Virus record (IMG/VR): IMGVR_UViG_3300020171_000130
Coordinates: 1 to 24,567 of that record
Direction: 5' to 3' (one strand)
Length of the DNA: 24,567 nt
Origin: a virus
The notes under the pieces were generated by a model. That model saw only the letters and a list, made by a program, of their open reading frames with translations, was not told the DNA's origin and made no database searches. The position numbers and the translations under genes were made by a program. Positions 502 through 19,845 of the stretch are shown here, piece by piece. Within the stretch, counting starts at the first letter, position 1. Every line of letters begins with the position of its first letter.

Positions 502-815
502 AAAACACACCAATCAAAATCTTAATATCCCAAATGGGAACGAACCTAGAACAAGTATCTAAAGATTATATCGCTGGATTATACGACGGGTCGGGATTAG
601 TAAAAGATTTAAAAACCTTATTAGAAAAAGCTCTAGTAATAGAAGCACACGAGGACGCTATAAACGATATAGAAAACTCAGAGCCAGAAAGGCGAGCAGA
701 GAGAATGGCTGAAGAAATGTCAGATTCAACTATGACCTTAGAAGAAAAAGAAGAAATGGCTGATTGCCACGCTAGCCCAGAGGACGGATGTGAACATTGT
801 AAGGAACAATTATAA
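498..815 (+). CDS. Acidic hypothetical protein with C-terminal Cys/His cluster
   Basis: The ORF encodes 105 residues. The middle is a highly charged helix (EDAINDIENSEPERRAERM). The C-terminus carries C-H-A-S-P-E-D-G-C-E-H-C, a likely small zinc-binding cluster. The gene overlaps its upstream neighbour by four bases (ATGA). Its stop codon, TAA 813-815, lies inside the first arm of the interleaved inverted repeat at 814-871, so a ribosome terminating here would cover that arm. I do not recognise the family. Confidence 0.7.
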   Translation: MKNTPIKILISQMGTNLEQVSKDYIAGLYDGSGLVKDLKTLLEKALVIEAHEDAINDIENSEPERRAERMAEEMSDSTMTLEEKEEMADCHASPEDGCEHCKEQL

Positions 816-871
816 ATTAATCGTAGAGTTAGGAGCTAGTTTTTAAGCGATTAATTTAACTAGCTTCTAAC
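814..871 (+). promoter_or_regulatory. Interleaved inverted repeats (A-B-A'-B'), candidate RNA switch
   Basis: Arm A (814-823, aaattaatcg) is exactly complementary to A' (848-857, cgattaattt). Arm B (828-841, gttaggagctagtt) pairs with B' (858-871, aactagcttctaac) over 14 bp with one G-U. The order is A, B, A', B', with spacers of 4, 6 and 0 bases. Full formation of both stems is sterically implausible with such short connectors, so they should exclude each other. A overlaps the stop codon of the gene ending at 815, and B' ends 12 bases before the ATG at 884. No U-tract follows, so termination is less likely than translational control. Confidence 0.6.
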
Positions 872-6919: not shown

Positions 6920-7465
6920 ATGAAAGATAACCAAGTATATTATCAACAAGGTGGAGGGGACGAGCAATATACCCCAAAATATGGTGTAGAAGTTTTATTG
7001 CCACATATTCAACACTTAAAAGATAAAATAATTTGGTGTCCGTTTGATAAAGAGGATAGTCAGTTTGTAAGGGTTTTAACCGAAAATGGATTTAATGTTG
7101 TATATTCTCACATAGATAGTGGACAAGATTTTTTAGAATATGAACCAGAAAAATGGGATGTTTTAATATCAAATCCTCCTTATAAAAACAAGAGAGTTTA
7201 TTGGGAAAGAGCATTGGACTTGAAAAAACCTTTTGCTTTATTGCTTCCGCTTAATATCCTTTCTGATAGTGTTATAAACACTACGATGCGAGAGCGAGAG
7301 CGAGAGCGAGAGTTTCAGCTTTTAATCCCAAGTCGTAGAATGAGATTTTATAACAACCTAACAGGGGAAACAGGGAATCAACCAACATTTAAAGCCAGTT
7401 ATTTCGGGGTAAACATATTTAAGCAACAAATAATTTTACAAGATATGGATCTAAAATCTAAATAA
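6920..7465 (+). CDS. Dam-like DNA adenine-N6 methyltransferase
   Basis: The 181-residue product has DEQYTP near the N-terminus (14-19), a Rossmann-type stretch (KIIWCPFDKEDSQFV), then the catalytic motif SNPPYKN (84-90). This layout is known from short phage-encoded adenine methyltransferases. It would methylate the N6 of adenine in DNA using S-adenosylmethionine. Residues 124-131 are RERERERE, encoded by four exact copies of CGAGAG (7289-7312). That insertion lies after the helix following motif IV and does not break the frame. It is coupled to the upstream gene with a one-base gap. Together with the C5 and ParB-type methyltransferases it suggests heavy DNA methylation. Target sequence is unknown. 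Confidence 0.8.
   Translation: MKDNQVYYQQGGGDEQYTPKYGVEVLLPHIQHLKDKIIWCPFDKEDSQFVRVLTENGFNVVYSHIDSGQDFLEYEPEKWDVLISNPPYKNKRVYWERALDLKKPFALLLPLNILSDSVINTTMREREREREFQLLIPSRRMRFYNNLTGETGNQPTFKASYFGVNIFKQQIILQDMDLKSK
7289..7312 (+). repeat. Hexanucleotide microsatellite (CGAGAG)x4
   Basis: Four perfect copies of CGAGAG lie inside the Dam-like gene and encode alternating Arg-Glu. As the unit is six bases, gain or loss of copies keeps the frame and changes only the length of a charged loop. Confidence 0.85.
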
Positions 7466-7692: not shown

Positions 7693-7708
7693 TGTCAAAG
7701 CATTGACA
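7693..7708 (+). promoter_or_regulatory. Operator-like palindrome overlapping a -35 box
   Basis: TGTCAA (7693-7698), AGCA, TTGACA (7703-7708) is a perfect 6-4-6 inverted repeat whose right half is the -35 box of the promoter at 7703-7731. A dimeric repressor could bind here. Alternatively the left half is a -35 box facing left: on the minus strand TTGACA is followed after 17 bases by TTTAAT (plus positions 7675-7670), five of six matches to a -10 box. Confidence 0.45.
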
Positions 7709-7731
7709 ATTAAATAAAAATAGATTATAAT
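7703..7731 (+). promoter_or_regulatory. Perfect-consensus sigma70-type promoter
   Basis: TTGACA (7703-7708), a 17-base spacer and TATAAT (7726-7731) match the consensus at all twelve positions. Transcription should begin near 7738-7740, just before the first arm of the interleaved inverted repeats at 7742. It would drive the HNH gene and possibly the sugar, methyltransferase and terminase genes behind it. A palindrome overlaps the -35 box. Confidence 0.85.
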
Positions 7732-7741
7732 TATAGTATAA

Positions 7742-7793
7742 TCAACTTACGAGCGGAATCCCCAGTTTTACCGTAAGTTGAGCTGGGGATTTT
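7742..7793 (+). promoter_or_regulatory. Interleaved inverted repeats ending in a terminator-like hairpin
   Basis: Arm A (7742-7751, tcaacttacg) is exactly complementary to A' (7772-7781). Arm B (7757-7765, aatccccag) is exactly complementary to B' (7783-7791). The order is A, B, A', B', with spacers of 5, 6 and 1 bases. B/B' is a GC-rich stem running into TTTT then GTT, resembling a weak intrinsic terminator. A/A' would enclose B and act as an anti-terminator. The RNA begins within a few bases of A, so the element forms the extreme 5' end of the transcript. It could be an attenuator for the genes from 7804, or a small RNA of about 55 bases. Confidence 0.65.
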
Positions 7794-7803
7794 GTTAAAC
7801 AAA

Positions 7804-8337
7804 ATGTGGAAAAAAGAATATTCAAGACAACACAGATATTATCTTAAAAATAAGAAAAAGTGTTGCGAAGCTAGTAAAAAATCATTTAACAAAAATAGAG
7901 AGAATAATCTAGCTAAAAAAAGATTGGTTAATAATGAAAGAAGTAAAATAAGGAAAGAAAGATACAGAATATATATGGAAAGTTTTGTAAAAGAACATTA
8001 CCAAGAAATAATGCTCATTAAAACTTTAGGGGAGGCAATAAAGAAAAAGAAAAAATCAATTAGGTCAAAGAAATATTACGCTAGAAAAATGAATGCGAAG
8101 GGTAGTTTTACAACTGAAGAATGGGGAAAATTAAAAAAGAAATACGGATATAAGTGTGCTATATGTGGTAAAAAAGAACCATTCAAAAATCAATATTACA
8201 AATTTTTAGAACAAGATCATATAATTCCATTAATTAAAAAAGGTTCAAGCTTTATTGAAAACATTCAACCAACTTGTCATAAATGTAATTGTTTAAAGAT
8301 GGATAAGATTGACATAAGTTATAATAACGTTGTATAA
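7804..8337 (+). CDS. HNH endonuclease
   Basis: From ATG 7804 the product is 177 residues. The C-terminal domain has CAIC (118-121), QDHIIPL (137-143, with H139 as the likely general base), ENIQPTC (152-158, N153) and CHKCN (158-162). This is the HNH/beta-beta-alpha-metal fold stabilised by zinc through four cysteines. The N-terminal 95 residues are very basic (repeated YxxKNKKK and KKKKK runs) and should bind DNA. Such proteins act as homing nucleases, or as nicking/packaging partners of terminases. It is the first gene behind the promoter at 7703 and follows the switch-like element directly. A TTG at 7792 would add four residues but lies in the hairpin. Confidence 0.85.
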   Translation: MWKKEYSRQHRYYLKNKKKCCEASKKSFNKNRENNLAKKRLVNNERSKIRKERYRIYMESFVKEHYQEIMLIKTLGEAIKKKKKSIRSKKYYARKMNAKGSFTTEEWGKLKKKYGYKCAICGKKEPFKNQYYKFLEQDHIIPLIKKGSSFIENIQPTCHKCNCLKMDKIDISYNNVV

Positions 8338-8369
8338 TTAAGATAATAACAACCACTAAAATAAACATT

Positions 8370-9386
8370 ATGAAGAAAACAACTATAGCTTTAACGGGAA
8401 TTTGTGGCTTTGTGGCTCATCACGTCGCAGAACACATACTCAAAGAGACAGATTGGAATATCATAGGACTTGATAAACTCTCATATTCCAGCAACGGTCT
8501 AGATCGCCTCCGAGACATCAAAGCCTTTAATGAAAACCGAGTAAAGATGTTTTCTGTAGATTTACAATTACCATTAAGTGTAGGAGTAAAACAAGAAATA
8601 GGTGAAGTAGATTATATTTTAAATCTAGCTAGTGAGAGCCACGTAGATAACTCTATAAAAGATCCAGTAAGCTTTACGTTAAACAACGTGAAGCTTGTTT
8701 TAAATATGTTAGAGTGGGCGAGAGAGCTTAAAGGGTTGAAGAAGTTTATTCAGTTCTCAACTGACGAAGTTTTTGGAACAGCCCCAAAAGGAGTTGATTT
8801 TAAGGAAGATGACCCACATAATGCTGGTAATCCTTATTCAGCAAGTAAAGACGCACAGGAGAGTATCTGCAGGGCTTATGCCAATACATACGGACTACCT
8901 ATTAATATAACTAATGCGATGAATATTTTTGGGGAACGTCAGCATCCAGAGAAGTTTATACCTATTTGTATTAGAAAGATTTTAGCAGGAGAAACAATAC
9001 AAATCCACGCTAATAAAGATTTAACAGAATCAGGCAAGAGGCATTATCTACACGCCAGAAACATAGCTCAAGTTATGCAGTTTATATTAGAAAAAACAGA
9101 TGAAGTATTGAATAAGAGCAGTGTTTCAGATGGTTGCTGGAATATAGTAGGAGATAAAGAGGTAGCTAATTCAGATTTAGCGTTGATGATAGGAAAGATA
9201 TTAGGCAAGGAAGCGAAGATAGAACTCGTGTCCTGGCATTTTTCTCGCCCTGGGCATGACCTTAGGTATTCTTTATCAGGTGGAAAACTAAAGAAAGCTG
9301 GTTTTTCATATCCTATTGATTTTGAAAATACACTAAGAAAAACAATAGAATGGAGCATTGCACCAGAAAACAAAAGATGGTTATGA
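8370..9386 (+). CDS. NAD-dependent dTDP-glucose 4,6-dehydratase-like protein
   Basis: The 338-residue product is an extended short-chain dehydrogenase/reductase with RmlB-type motifs. TGICGFVA (9-16) is a variant of the NAD-binding TGGxGFIG. LASESHVDNSI (86-96), STDEVFG (130-136), the catalytic YSASK (156-160), GERQHPEKFIP (188-198) and RPGHDLRYS follow in order. The expected reaction is oxidation of a nucleotide-sugar at C4 with loss of water, giving a 4-keto-6-deoxy sugar. No RmlA, RmlC or RmlD homologue is visible, so the host would have to supply or finish the sugar. Related C4 epimerases cannot be excluded. It overlaps the next gene (ATGA) and opens a sugar-related island. Confidence 0.87.
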   Translation: MKKTTIALTGICGFVAHHVAEHILKETDWNIIGLDKLSYSSNGLDRLRDIKAFNENRVKMFSVDLQLPLSVGVKQEIGEVDYILNLASESHVDNSIKDPVSFTLNNVKLVLNMLEWARELKGLKKFIQFSTDEVFGTAPKGVDFKEDDPHNAGNPYSASKDAQESICRAYANTYGLPINITNAMNIFGERQHPEKFIPICIRKILAGETIQIHANKDLTESGKRHYLHARNIAQVMQFILEKTDEVLNKSSVSDGCWNIVGDKEVANSDLALMIGKILGKEAKIELVSWHFSRPGHDLRYSLSGGKLKKAGFSYPIDFENTLRKTIEWSIAPENKRWL

Positions 9387-15477: not shown

Positions 15478-15729
15478 ATGCCTAAAACCCTAAACACTAT
15501 AATAAACGGAGAGCCACAATTAAAGAAGATACCCTTTGAAGTTATGGGGCTTGAATATCATACGAGCGATTTTCTTAATTGGTGTATGAAGAATAGAGAG
15601 AATCTTGAGTTTATTAAAAAGTGTCAGACATTAGAAAAAGCATCTATGTCATCGGTTTTACATATAGACCATCTCAAAAGGATACAGAAGATAGAGGACA
15701 CTATAAGCTATAAGAGGAATGGGGCTTGA
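15478..15729 (+). CDS. Small hypothetical protein (83 aa)
   Basis: The ORF encodes 83 residues (MPKTLNTIINGEPQLKKIPFE...), mixed with a helical C-terminal half (SDFLNWCMKNRENLEFIKKC). Its TGA stop (15727-15729) lies inside the -35 box TTGACA of the promoter for the structural genes, so gene end and promoter are interlocked. It starts 10 bases after the terminase stop in aataacaATG. Function is unknown. Confidence 0.65.
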   Translation: MPKTLNTIINGEPQLKKIPFEVMGLEYHTSDFLNWCMKNRENLEFIKKCQTLEKASMSSVLHIDHLKRIQKIEDTISYKRNGA

Positions 15730-15753
15730 CACGATTTCATACTTTGTTATAAT
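15726..15753 (+). promoter_or_regulatory. Sigma70-type promoter for the structural module
   Basis: TTGACA (15726-15731), a 16-base spacer and TATAAT (15748-15753) match the consensus boxes exactly; spacing is one base under the optimum. Transcription should begin near 15760. The first gene, at 15832, is reached only after passing the terminator at 15799-15827. Confidence 0.8.
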
Positions 15754-15798
15754 AAACCAATAGAATAAATAAACTTATTTCCTAGCCAATACAACGGA

Positions 15799-15827
15799 GG
15801 GAATGTCAATACGACATTCCCTTTTTT
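15799..15827 (+). terminator. Intrinsic terminator/attenuator just after the promoter
   Basis: GGGAATGTC (15799-15807) and GACATTCCC (15813-15821) form a perfect nine-bp stem with loop aatac, followed by six T residues (15822-15827). This is a textbook rho-independent terminator. It begins only about 40 bases after the expected transcription start at 15760 and ends five bases before the ATG at 15832. It could end transcription from upstream, create a small RNA of about 70 bases, or act as a conditional attenuator for the portal and capsid genes. A ten-codon ORF (ATG 15803 to TGA 15835) spans the hairpin exactly and overlaps the next ATG. Confidence 0.85.
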
Positions 15828-15831
15828 ATTT

Positions 15832-15993
15832 ATGAAAGATAATAGAAGAAAATTAACTGACCCTGAAGAATATCAAATTATCAAAAGTATCTATTTTGAG
15901 AAAGATGTTTTTGATAAAGAGAAAACAGACCCCATAGAACGCTTGGAACGTATGAACTCAAAAGAACGTAATAATAATATTAACTCACGATAA
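15832..15993 (+). CDS. Small hypothetical protein before portal (53 aa)
   Basis: The ORF encodes 53 residues (MKDNRRKLTDPEEYQIIKS...), charged and helical, with no cysteines or recognised motif. It is the first gene behind the terminator at 15799-15827. Its TAA overlaps the portal ATG by one base (TAATG), so portal translation may depend on it. Small proteins at this position are sometimes head accessory factors, but that is only context. Confidence 0.6.
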   Translation: MKDNRRKLTDPEEYQIIKSIYFEKDVFDKEKTDPIERLERMNSKERNNNINSR

Positions 15994-18023: not shown

Positions 18024-18227
18024 ATGCCTATTAAAAAGAAAACAACAAAAAAAGAAGTAAAAAAACCTGTTAAGAAAGTTATTAAAAAGAAAGTAGAGAA
18101 GGTAATTGAAGAAGTAATTGAAAAAGCTATAGAGAAAGTTAAAACAAGACAAGGAAACGTACCAGTAAACGGCTCACCAAACGGGAATCAAGGTGGAGTA
18201 CCAGTAAATGGCTCACCAAACGATTAG
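18024..18227 (+). CDS. Lysine-rich protein with two C-terminal repeats
   Basis: From ATG 18024 the product is 67 residues. A basic Lys/Val/Glu stretch forms a likely coiled coil (KKVIKKKVEKVIEEVIEKAI), followed by two copies of VPVNGSPNG/D at the C-terminus. These come from two 25-base direct repeats (18159-18183 and 18198-18222) that differ at one base. An ATG at 18009 would add five residues but overlaps the previous gene. Positive charge and placement between portal and scaffold suggest an internal head component, without proof. Confidence 0.6.
   Translation: MPIKKKTTKKEVKKPVKKVIKKKVEKVIEEVIEKAIEKVKTRQGNVPVNGSPNGNQGGVPVNGSPND
18159..18222 (+). repeat. Two 25-bp direct repeats encoding VPVNGSPN
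   Basis: Copies at 18159-18183 and 18198-18222 are the same except for one synonymous change (AAC/AAT in the Asn codon). They lie 14 bases apart at the 3' end of the Lys-rich gene. The near-identity suggests a recent tandem duplication. Confidence 0.85.
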
Positions 18228-18237
18228 TTATTACTTC

Positions 18238-18330
18238 GTAGCCCCTAATGGGGGTTACAAAGTGGTAATTAGCCACTAGGACATCGGCTATCCAAAAACC
18301 GACTAAACGCATTGTAGCTCTGCACAAACT
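18238..18330 (+). promoter_or_regulatory. Four consecutive hairpins in the scaffold gene leader
   Basis: The 114-base gap before ATG 18342 can fold into four hairpins in a row: GTAGCCCC/GGGGTTAC (18238-18258, one G-U), AGTGG/CCACT (18261-18277), TCGG/CCGA (starting near 18284) and TGTAG/CTACA (starting near 18313). The first is strong; the others have 4-5 bp. A competing tagcc/ggcta pairing (18270-18274 with 18286-18290) links the second and third. I see no promoter or U-tract. The gap lies between portal-linked genes and the abundant scaffold and coat genes, where RNA processing or translation control would be useful. Confidence 0.4.
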
Positions 18331-18863: not shown

Positions 18864-19772
18864 ATGGCATTTCCAACAACATCGATGTCATCTACCACGT
18901 TAGCTGAGATGATTCCTGAGATATGGGGAGAAAAGATTAATGACTTTTATAAATCAAAGTTATTAATCGCAGACTTCTTCGTAGACAGGAGTTCAGAATT
19001 AGCAAGTGGTGGTGATGTGCTTTATACTCCTAATATGACAGAGTTCACGGCTAGCGAAAAATCAAACGCTACAGCCGTAACTCTAAACGCTCCTACAGAA
19101 ACAAAGATTACTTTATCTGTAAACCAGTGGTATGAGGCGTCATTCGCAATCGAAGATAGAGAAGCAGCACAAACTAAACATTCTTACTACATCCAAGAGA
19201 AGTACGCTAAGAACGCTGGTTACACTGTTGCTAAAAAGCTAGAAGTGGCTTTAGCATCTCTATTTGATAACTTCAGCACAACAGTTGGTGCTTCAACAAC
19301 AAATCTAGCTGATAGTGAAATTCGTGAAGCTATCGCAGGATTAGAAGCAGTTAACATTGATACAACTACTGACACAGCATTCTTCTTACATCCAAACGTG
19401 TTTTGGAAACAAGTTCAGAATCTTGATAAGTTCAGTCTTGCTATCAATTCACCTGTTAACGACCCAACTGCAAAGACTCCAAAAGCTACTCTATACGGTA
19501 TTCCAGTATATGTTTCAACAAACGTTCAACAAATTTCTGGAACAGTCGGTAGAGCTAACTGTATTGCTGAGAAAGACGCTCTTCACTGGGCTACTTCTCC
19601 ACTAGGAAGCGGTGGTTCTAAATCAGGAGCATCAATGACTGGTAAATACGGAGTTAGAGTTCAATCTAATTACATCCCTGAATATCTATCAACAATTACT
19701 ACTGCAGACTTGCTCTACGGTGTAATTGAAAATAGAGACACATCTGGTGTAACTATTTGGACACAAAACTAG
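18864..19772 (+). CDS. Major capsid protein, HK97-fold type
   Basis: The 302-residue product follows the scaffold gene directly. It contains a typical coat-protein outline. A helical N-terminal arm (STTLAEMIPEIWGEKINDFY) comes first. A beta-type E-loop region follows (GGDVLYTPNMTEFTASEK). A long spine helix comes next (YIQEKYAKNAGYTVAKKLEVAL). An A-domain stretch with TAFFLHPNVFWKQVQ and YGIPVYVSTNV precedes a final strand with RVQSNYIPEYLSTITTADLLYGV. Codons are less A-rich than in the early region (more GCT and ACT), in keeping with high expression. It lacks an obvious protease domain, so cleavage of the coat is not predicted. Confidence 0.87.
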   Translation: MAFPTTSMSSTTLAEMIPEIWGEKINDFYKSKLLIADFFVDRSSELASGGDVLYTPNMTEFTASEKSNATAVTLNAPTETKITLSVNQWYEASFAIEDREAAQTKHSYYIQEKYAKNAGYTVAKKLEVALASLFDNFSTTVGASTTNLADSEIREAIAGLEAVNIDTTTDTAFFLHPNVFWKQVQNLDKFSLAINSPVNDPTAKTPKATLYGIPVYVSTNVQQISGTVGRANCIAEKDALHWATSPLGSGGSKSGASMTGKYGVRVQSNYIPEYLSTITTADLLYGVIENRDTSGVTIWTQN

Positions 19773-19845
19773 CAATTAACCAATTTTAATTGTTTGCTCC
19801 TACTCACTGCAGATTGAGAGATAGGAGCAAATCTGTAAACAATTA
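19773..19845 (+). promoter_or_regulatory. Competing hairpins reaching the next start codon
   Basis: CAATTAA (19773-19779), directly after the coat gene stop, can pair with TTAATTG (19786-19792). Part of the latter (19787-19795, taattgttt) is also exactly complementary to aaacaatta (19837-19845), which includes the A of the next ATG. Between them TTTGCTCCTA/TAGGAGCAAA (19793-19802 with 19822-19831) forms a perfect ten-bp stem, with CTCA/TGAG inside. Thus one fold exposes and the other sequesters the start codon at 19845. No U-tract follows, so translation control is more likely than termination. Confidence 0.5.

Follow-up and report, generated by a model that had tools for sequence, protein, structure and literature searches.

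An apparently undescribed family of interleaved RNA elements near start codons in uncultured phages

The DNA analysed here, referred to as the window, comprises 24,567 bases and makes up an entire IMG/VR virus record. The virus is a tailed phage, as judged by its terminase and capsid genes. Searches for a host with these two genes returned only distant isolates and two MAG contigs whose binning is doubtful. A simple pattern search at 34 gene starts of the window found no Shine-Dalgarno-like (SD-like) motif. Around position 7,742, a promoter is followed by two interleaved stems, S1 and S2, and by an endonuclease gene:

7703..7731, plus strand, sigma70-type promoter TTGACA-17-TATAAT, 12/12 match (promoter scan)
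7742..7751, plus strand, arm A, 5' strand of S1 (sequence, repeat search)
7757..7765, plus strand, arm B, 5' strand of S2 (sequence, repeat search)
7766..7771, plus strand, L2, TTTTAC, which in the predicted fold extends S2 into the 3' end of A'
7772..7781, plus strand, arm A', 3' strand of S1 (sequence, repeat search)
7783..7791, plus strand, arm B', 3' strand of S2, ending 12 nt upstream of ATG 7804 (sequence, repeat search)
7804..8337, plus strand, HNH endonuclease gene (PF01844, PF14279; domain match), preferred start ATG 7804

The core reads TCAACTTACG (7742-7751), AGCGG, AATCCCCAG (7757-7765), TTTTAC, CGTAAGTTGA (7772-7781), G and CTGGGGATT (7783-7791). The original prediction described exact repeats of 10 bp (A) and 9 bp (B) in the order A-B-A'-B' with spacers of 5, 6 and 1, and this is what a rereading of the sequence gives. 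The element was also placed at a transcript 5' end, in agreement with the 12/12 promoter, whose predicted start site at ~7738 would put arm A ~4 nt into the transcript. A' precedes B' in transcription order, as had been claimed, and the U-rich stretch said to follow B' is present as TTTTGTT. The predicted minimum-energy fold is the S2 form (RNA folding z = -5.5), in which the U-run is drawn into the stem. The element would leave ~12 nt free upstream of the ATG (8 counting a G-U extension). We rejected a rule of exactly 12 nt to the ATG, since the value shifts with the cut at the base of S2 and becomes 7-12 nt with maximal G-U/A-U extension. By analogy with the spacing in other elements of the same type, ATG 7804 is preferred over TTG 7792 as the probable start of the HNH gene.

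No exact copy of the 7742 core was found elsewhere in IMG/VR. The original prediction had looked to relatives with the same gene order. The sole HNH relative found (L002/L005) showed no such element, but members of the class occur upstream of other genes in relatives of this phage. A place for the element in an HNH cassette was therefore rejected. Nearby, a third 12/12 promoter match (8309-8338) lies in the end of the HNH gene, just upstream of an epimerase gene at 8370. A short tandem repeat of GAGAGC (7285-7311) lies inside a 181-aa gene (6920-7465) whose product matches part of a DNA methyltransferase family.

Two more interleaved elements occur in the window, one of the same type (type I) and one that has an additional outer stem, P0 (type II):

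813..871, plus strand, second type I element: A 813-823, B 828-839, A' 848-858, B' 860-871; 12 nt upstream of ATG 884
18864..19772, plus strand, major capsid protein gene (PHROG 267)
19773..19777, plus strand, p'', CAATT, just past the capsid stop; possible second partner of the P0 5' arm
19788..19844, plus strand, type II element 3' of the major capsid gene, directly upstream of ATG 19845

The first of these is the companion of like geometry that had been predicted at 814-871, with a second stem longer than claimed (12 bp, one G-U). The stems of the type II element are P0 (19788-19794/19838-19844), S1 (19795-19802/19822-19829) and S2 (19808-19815/19830-19837). All three elements share the A-B-A'-B' order, and their stem sequences are unrelated.

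An energy scan for the interleaved geometry placed 7744-7795 (-39.5) and 814-871 (-38.0) at the top of the window and also matched 19795-19837 (-28.7), while the best value from 25 window shuffles was -26.1. Interleaved 7-bp pairs commonly arise at random, so that a coincidence of inverted repeats deserves mention, but Markov shuffles predict only 0.047 pairs per window in which both arms reach at least 9 bp inside 80 nt. The shuffles and the covariation reported below contradict chance, and we regard its probability as negligible.

A further scan match at 18225-18280 was rejected as an interleaved element because a single long nested hairpin explains it better. Stop-codon readthrough past the capsid gene was also discarded, as no conserved open frame was seen by eye beyond the stop. 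In the region 15726-15832, a strong hairpin (15796-15824) lies downstream of another consensus promoter (TTGACA-16-TATAAT), and an outer AU stem involves TTTATTTAT at ATG 15832; this would be start-site sequestration by a nested, non-interleaved structure.

Two more copies of this layout, with different sequences, are present in the related phage L003. A scan of 98 related loci gave noncoding matches mostly just 5' of start codons, many of them directly 3' of the major capsid gene (PHROG 267). The post-capsid elements contain the third helix P0, whose 5' arm abuts A and whose 3' arm, p', abuts B', usually near the start codon and often reaching the ATG. Capsid-anchored retrieval among related IMG/VR phages yielded 80 distinct post-capsid regions, and an energy score of -31 or lower was reached by 69 of these 80 in comparison with 11 of 800 shuffles. 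In five control phage regions (170 kb), scan scores reached at most -31.5, mostly in GC-rich sequence, with gene overlap assessed by eye; two control post-capsid gaps contain plain hairpins.

We analysed 68 type II elements, 58 of which are non-redundant. S1 measures 6-13 bp, and the loop between A' and B' (L3) has 0 nt in 41 of the 58 and 3 nt at most. Predicted energies favour S1 over S2 in 60 of the 68. The distance from the end of B' to the ATG has its mode at 8 nt, and p' extends into the start region in most elements; in about one quarter, the ATG lies 15-57 nt from B', which counts against a model centred on the start codon. Several members offer the P0 5' arm another complement just past the capsid stop: 17 of 42 show a 6-mer match there, where single-base shuffles would give 1.8. 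The capsid gene and the element are separated by an additional ORF in L092 and L143, in which the element still lies upstream of a homologue of the usual next gene. Because downstream genes differ among other phages, the element is not tied to one gene family.

Type I elements, which have no P0, number 13 in our set: those at 7742 and 813 and eleven others. L2 is mostly U-rich and ends before A', L3 is mostly a G, and in the predicted folds L2 extends S2 into A'. The end of B' falls 12-14 nt upstream of the ATG in 9 of the 13, a count that depends on where S2 is cut. In 11 of the 13, predicted energies rank S2 as more stable than S1. S1 can form before S2, and the proposed competition between the two hairpins is supported.

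Further features were noticed in some relatives. A plain hairpin terminator replaces the interleaved element 3' of the capsid gene in L030, L031, L038, L142 and L171, and several of these regions have a TATAAT-like box near the next ATG, a combination that suggests very short or leaderless transcripts. A group I intron (Rfam) was recognised at 15580-15776 of L043, apparently within the capsid gene, since it is flanked by two pieces matching the major capsid profile. The gene 3' of the element at 5896 in L078 starts MKALGDRVLLQVA... and resembles, by eye, a GroES-type co-chaperonin. At 639-715 of L036, the A arm (ACAATATA) occurs a third time, beside the start codon, so A' would have two possible partners there, A and the start region.

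Strong support for the family comes from covariation. Among the 58 non-redundant type II elements, the arms of P0, S1 and S2 pair with their own partners at 97.9, 99.0 and 100% of positions and at 49, 45 and 50% when arms are swapped between phages; the corresponding values for type I are 100% (S1) and 97.2% (S2) as compared with 46 and 42%. As the arms had been picked for pairing, the shuffles of whole regions and a plain alignment are the stronger tests. When 20 type II sequences were aligned independently with MAFFT, 97.6% of cells were paired (76.3% after shuffling), 90 cells show double-sided changes (22.5 after shuffling), and the covariation score is 0.621, compared with 0.187 for shuffles and no more than 0.129 for slid registers. 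On every measure, 0 of 500 shuffles reached the observed value, a count that is not a probability because the aligned sequences are related. Double-sided changes occur in P0, in both parts of S1 and in S2, so all three helices covary. The closing C-G pair of S1, a loop A, a loop G and one C-G pair of S2 are invariant in this alignment. A covariance model of P0 and S1, run over 1.62 Mb, located the element only at this post-capsid position and never in the controls, and it recovered copies outside its training set (L092, L188). All the above make it nearly certain that the interleaved elements are a selected RNA family, and the earlier view that selection acts on structure and not on sequence is upheld by the shuffle and covariation tests across relatives.

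The elements would act in cis as RNA within phage transcripts, either in 5' leaders or in the gaps between cistrons. With an L3 of 0-1 nt and an S1 of 6-13 bp, geometric reasoning indicates that S1 and S2 are not both complete in one molecule, so that the stems may alternate, copies may pair with each other, or the knot may be partly open. In type I, S1 would form first during transcription and then be displaced by S2, which is usually more stable and is extended by the U-rich L2. In type II, P0 would close the element and S1 would be the more stable state. As the elements end near a start codon in a genome devoid of SD sites, the pairing state most likely sets the accessibility of the start region, and control of translation is favoured. 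We believe that alternative pairings beside the start codon tune translation of the downstream gene, with a probability of about 0.4; our confidence in the mechanism of the element overall is moderate. Against a switch in cis, S1 in type II is both first and stronger, which would disfavour S2 despite its perfect conservation. The invariant residues, for which a simple switch of pairing has no use, may point to contact with a protein or ligand or to a tertiary contact.

Several other explanations have to be weighed against translational tuning. The elements might mark mRNA boundaries as compact structures that block exonucleases or direct processing; 7742 would stabilise the downstream message at its 5' end, and type II the capsid message at its 3' end. 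In most relatives they follow highly expressed structural genes, arm A lies at or near the predicted start site at 7742 and in some other type I members, and several phages without the element carry a hairpin terminator at the same spot, some of them followed by a promoter-like -10. The post-capsid recurrence and the replacement by terminators in some relatives keep a boundary role open. We rate it as unlikely, given that neither the interleaving nor the conserved loop residues are required for it, that the position of the element follows start codons, and that a strict pattern search flagged a terminator in only 2 of the 11 element-less regions, others being recognised by eye only. The original prediction favoured a switchable terminator or attenuator at 7742, in which S2 and the T-rich tail would terminate transcription unless S1 persists. 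TTTTGTT stands immediately 3' of B', S2 is the predicted minimum-energy fold and the element at 2161 of L031 is similar. A clear U-tract 3' of B' is confined to these two among the 13 type I elements (L193 at 954, where 5 of 8 letters are T, is a borderline case), and p' follows B' in type II, so the proposal fails as a family rule. At 7742 itself the tail is T-rich (6/8) but the hairpin loop is long and the U-run is taken into the stem in the predicted fold; a terminator scan did not list the site, which its loop limit of 8 excludes by design. Partial termination at 7742 alone is conceivable, and the terminator reading is in our judgement very improbable. A put-like action on polymerase, also suggested for 7742, has no positive evidence.

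Two other possibilities concern the S1 hairpin. Copies could join transcripts by loop-bulge kissing in trans, with B presented in the apical loop and B' bulged at the base so that B:B' pairs form between molecules. This would agree with the dominance of S1 in type II, with an inner extension of S1 that leaves a loop of ~12 nt in which B is flanked by two residues on each side and an A and a G are conserved, and with the apparent steric impossibility of B:B' pairing in cis once S1 is closed. The chance of such kissing appears slim, as the 6-13 bp variation of S1 is awkward for a defined assembly, S2 in cis is favoured in type I and there is no known reason to join mRNAs. Alternatively, a phage or host protein might bind the apical hairpin of S1, which often has a bulged A below the loop, and lock one state. 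The invariant closing C-G, the loop A and G and the conserved C-G pair of S2 in the 20-sequence alignment are in line with such an operator, for which we see a slimmer chance still: no candidate protein was identified, and the features of type I differ (U-rich L2, G at L3). A more far-reaching proposal, which we consider doubtful, is an undescribed class of phage regulatory RNA, characterised by its interleaved stems and not by sequence, in which the invariant loop residues would recognise a protein or ligand or join two transcripts, and the genes 3' of the capsid gene would thereby respond in their expression to a signal during infection.

A fast-changing RNA family of conserved structure, located most often directly 3' of the capsid gene, thus spans a large group of uncultured phages, and sequence-based searches miss it because its stems share no sequence. 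It poses a structural puzzle, as two perfectly conserved stems are mutually exclusive in one molecule by steric reasoning. If translational tuning is true in these phages without SD sites, the elements offer a testable model for the ratio of capsid to downstream protein.

The family is apparently undescribed so far. No element matched Rfam 15 above the gathering cutoff, the sole match being the unrelated intron in L043, and no description was found in the open-access literature searched, which is not proof of absence. Classical attenuators and the expression platforms of riboswitches employ competing alternative hairpins; most of the present elements differ in having no terminator U-tract, and no ligand or leader peptide was seen. 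HK022 put RNA is, like 7742, a structured RNA at a transcript 5' end, and the put sites are not known to have the interleaved arrangement found here. The phi29 pRNA combines variable sequence with conserved structure, as the present elements do, and pairs between copies through its loops, whereas our elements occupy gaps in mRNA, and some relatives lack them or have something else in their place. The A-B-A'-B' order with both stems conserved, as expected of a classical H-type pseudoknot, was found, but a full pseudoknot was rejected because, by steric reasoning, loop 3 is too short to span S1.

The same connectivity occurs in a phage leader that controls translation, the pseudoknot of T4/T2 gene 32 mRNA, which is coaxially stacked, lies 67 nt from the start and has a known protein partner (PMC3014915). 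At the time of that review it was possibly the only viral pseudoknot known in translational autoregulation (PMC3014915). The present elements differ from it by an L3 of 0-1 nt and stems of ~7-13 bp, for which steric reasoning does not permit the fold.

The nearest functional parallel to 7742 is probably found, by analogy, in the leaders of T4-type homing endonuclease genes (I-TevI, segB and Aeh1 mobE; seg43 of Aeromonas phage 25), which hold RNA structures (PMC3014915, PMC2988022). As at 7742, a stable RNA structure stands beside a promoter and immediately 5' of the start of a phage endonuclease gene. In seg43 of phage 25, the ribosome-binding site comes just after a stable hairpin, which leaves it uncovered (PMC3014915, PMC2988022); at 7742, ~12 nt upstream of the ATG would likewise stay free. 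The T4-type structures are single hairpins that usually hide an SD site, whereas 7742 has two interleaved stems and no SD. Unlike in those leaders, the promoter includes the whole 7742 element, and the class precedes many genes other than endonucleases.
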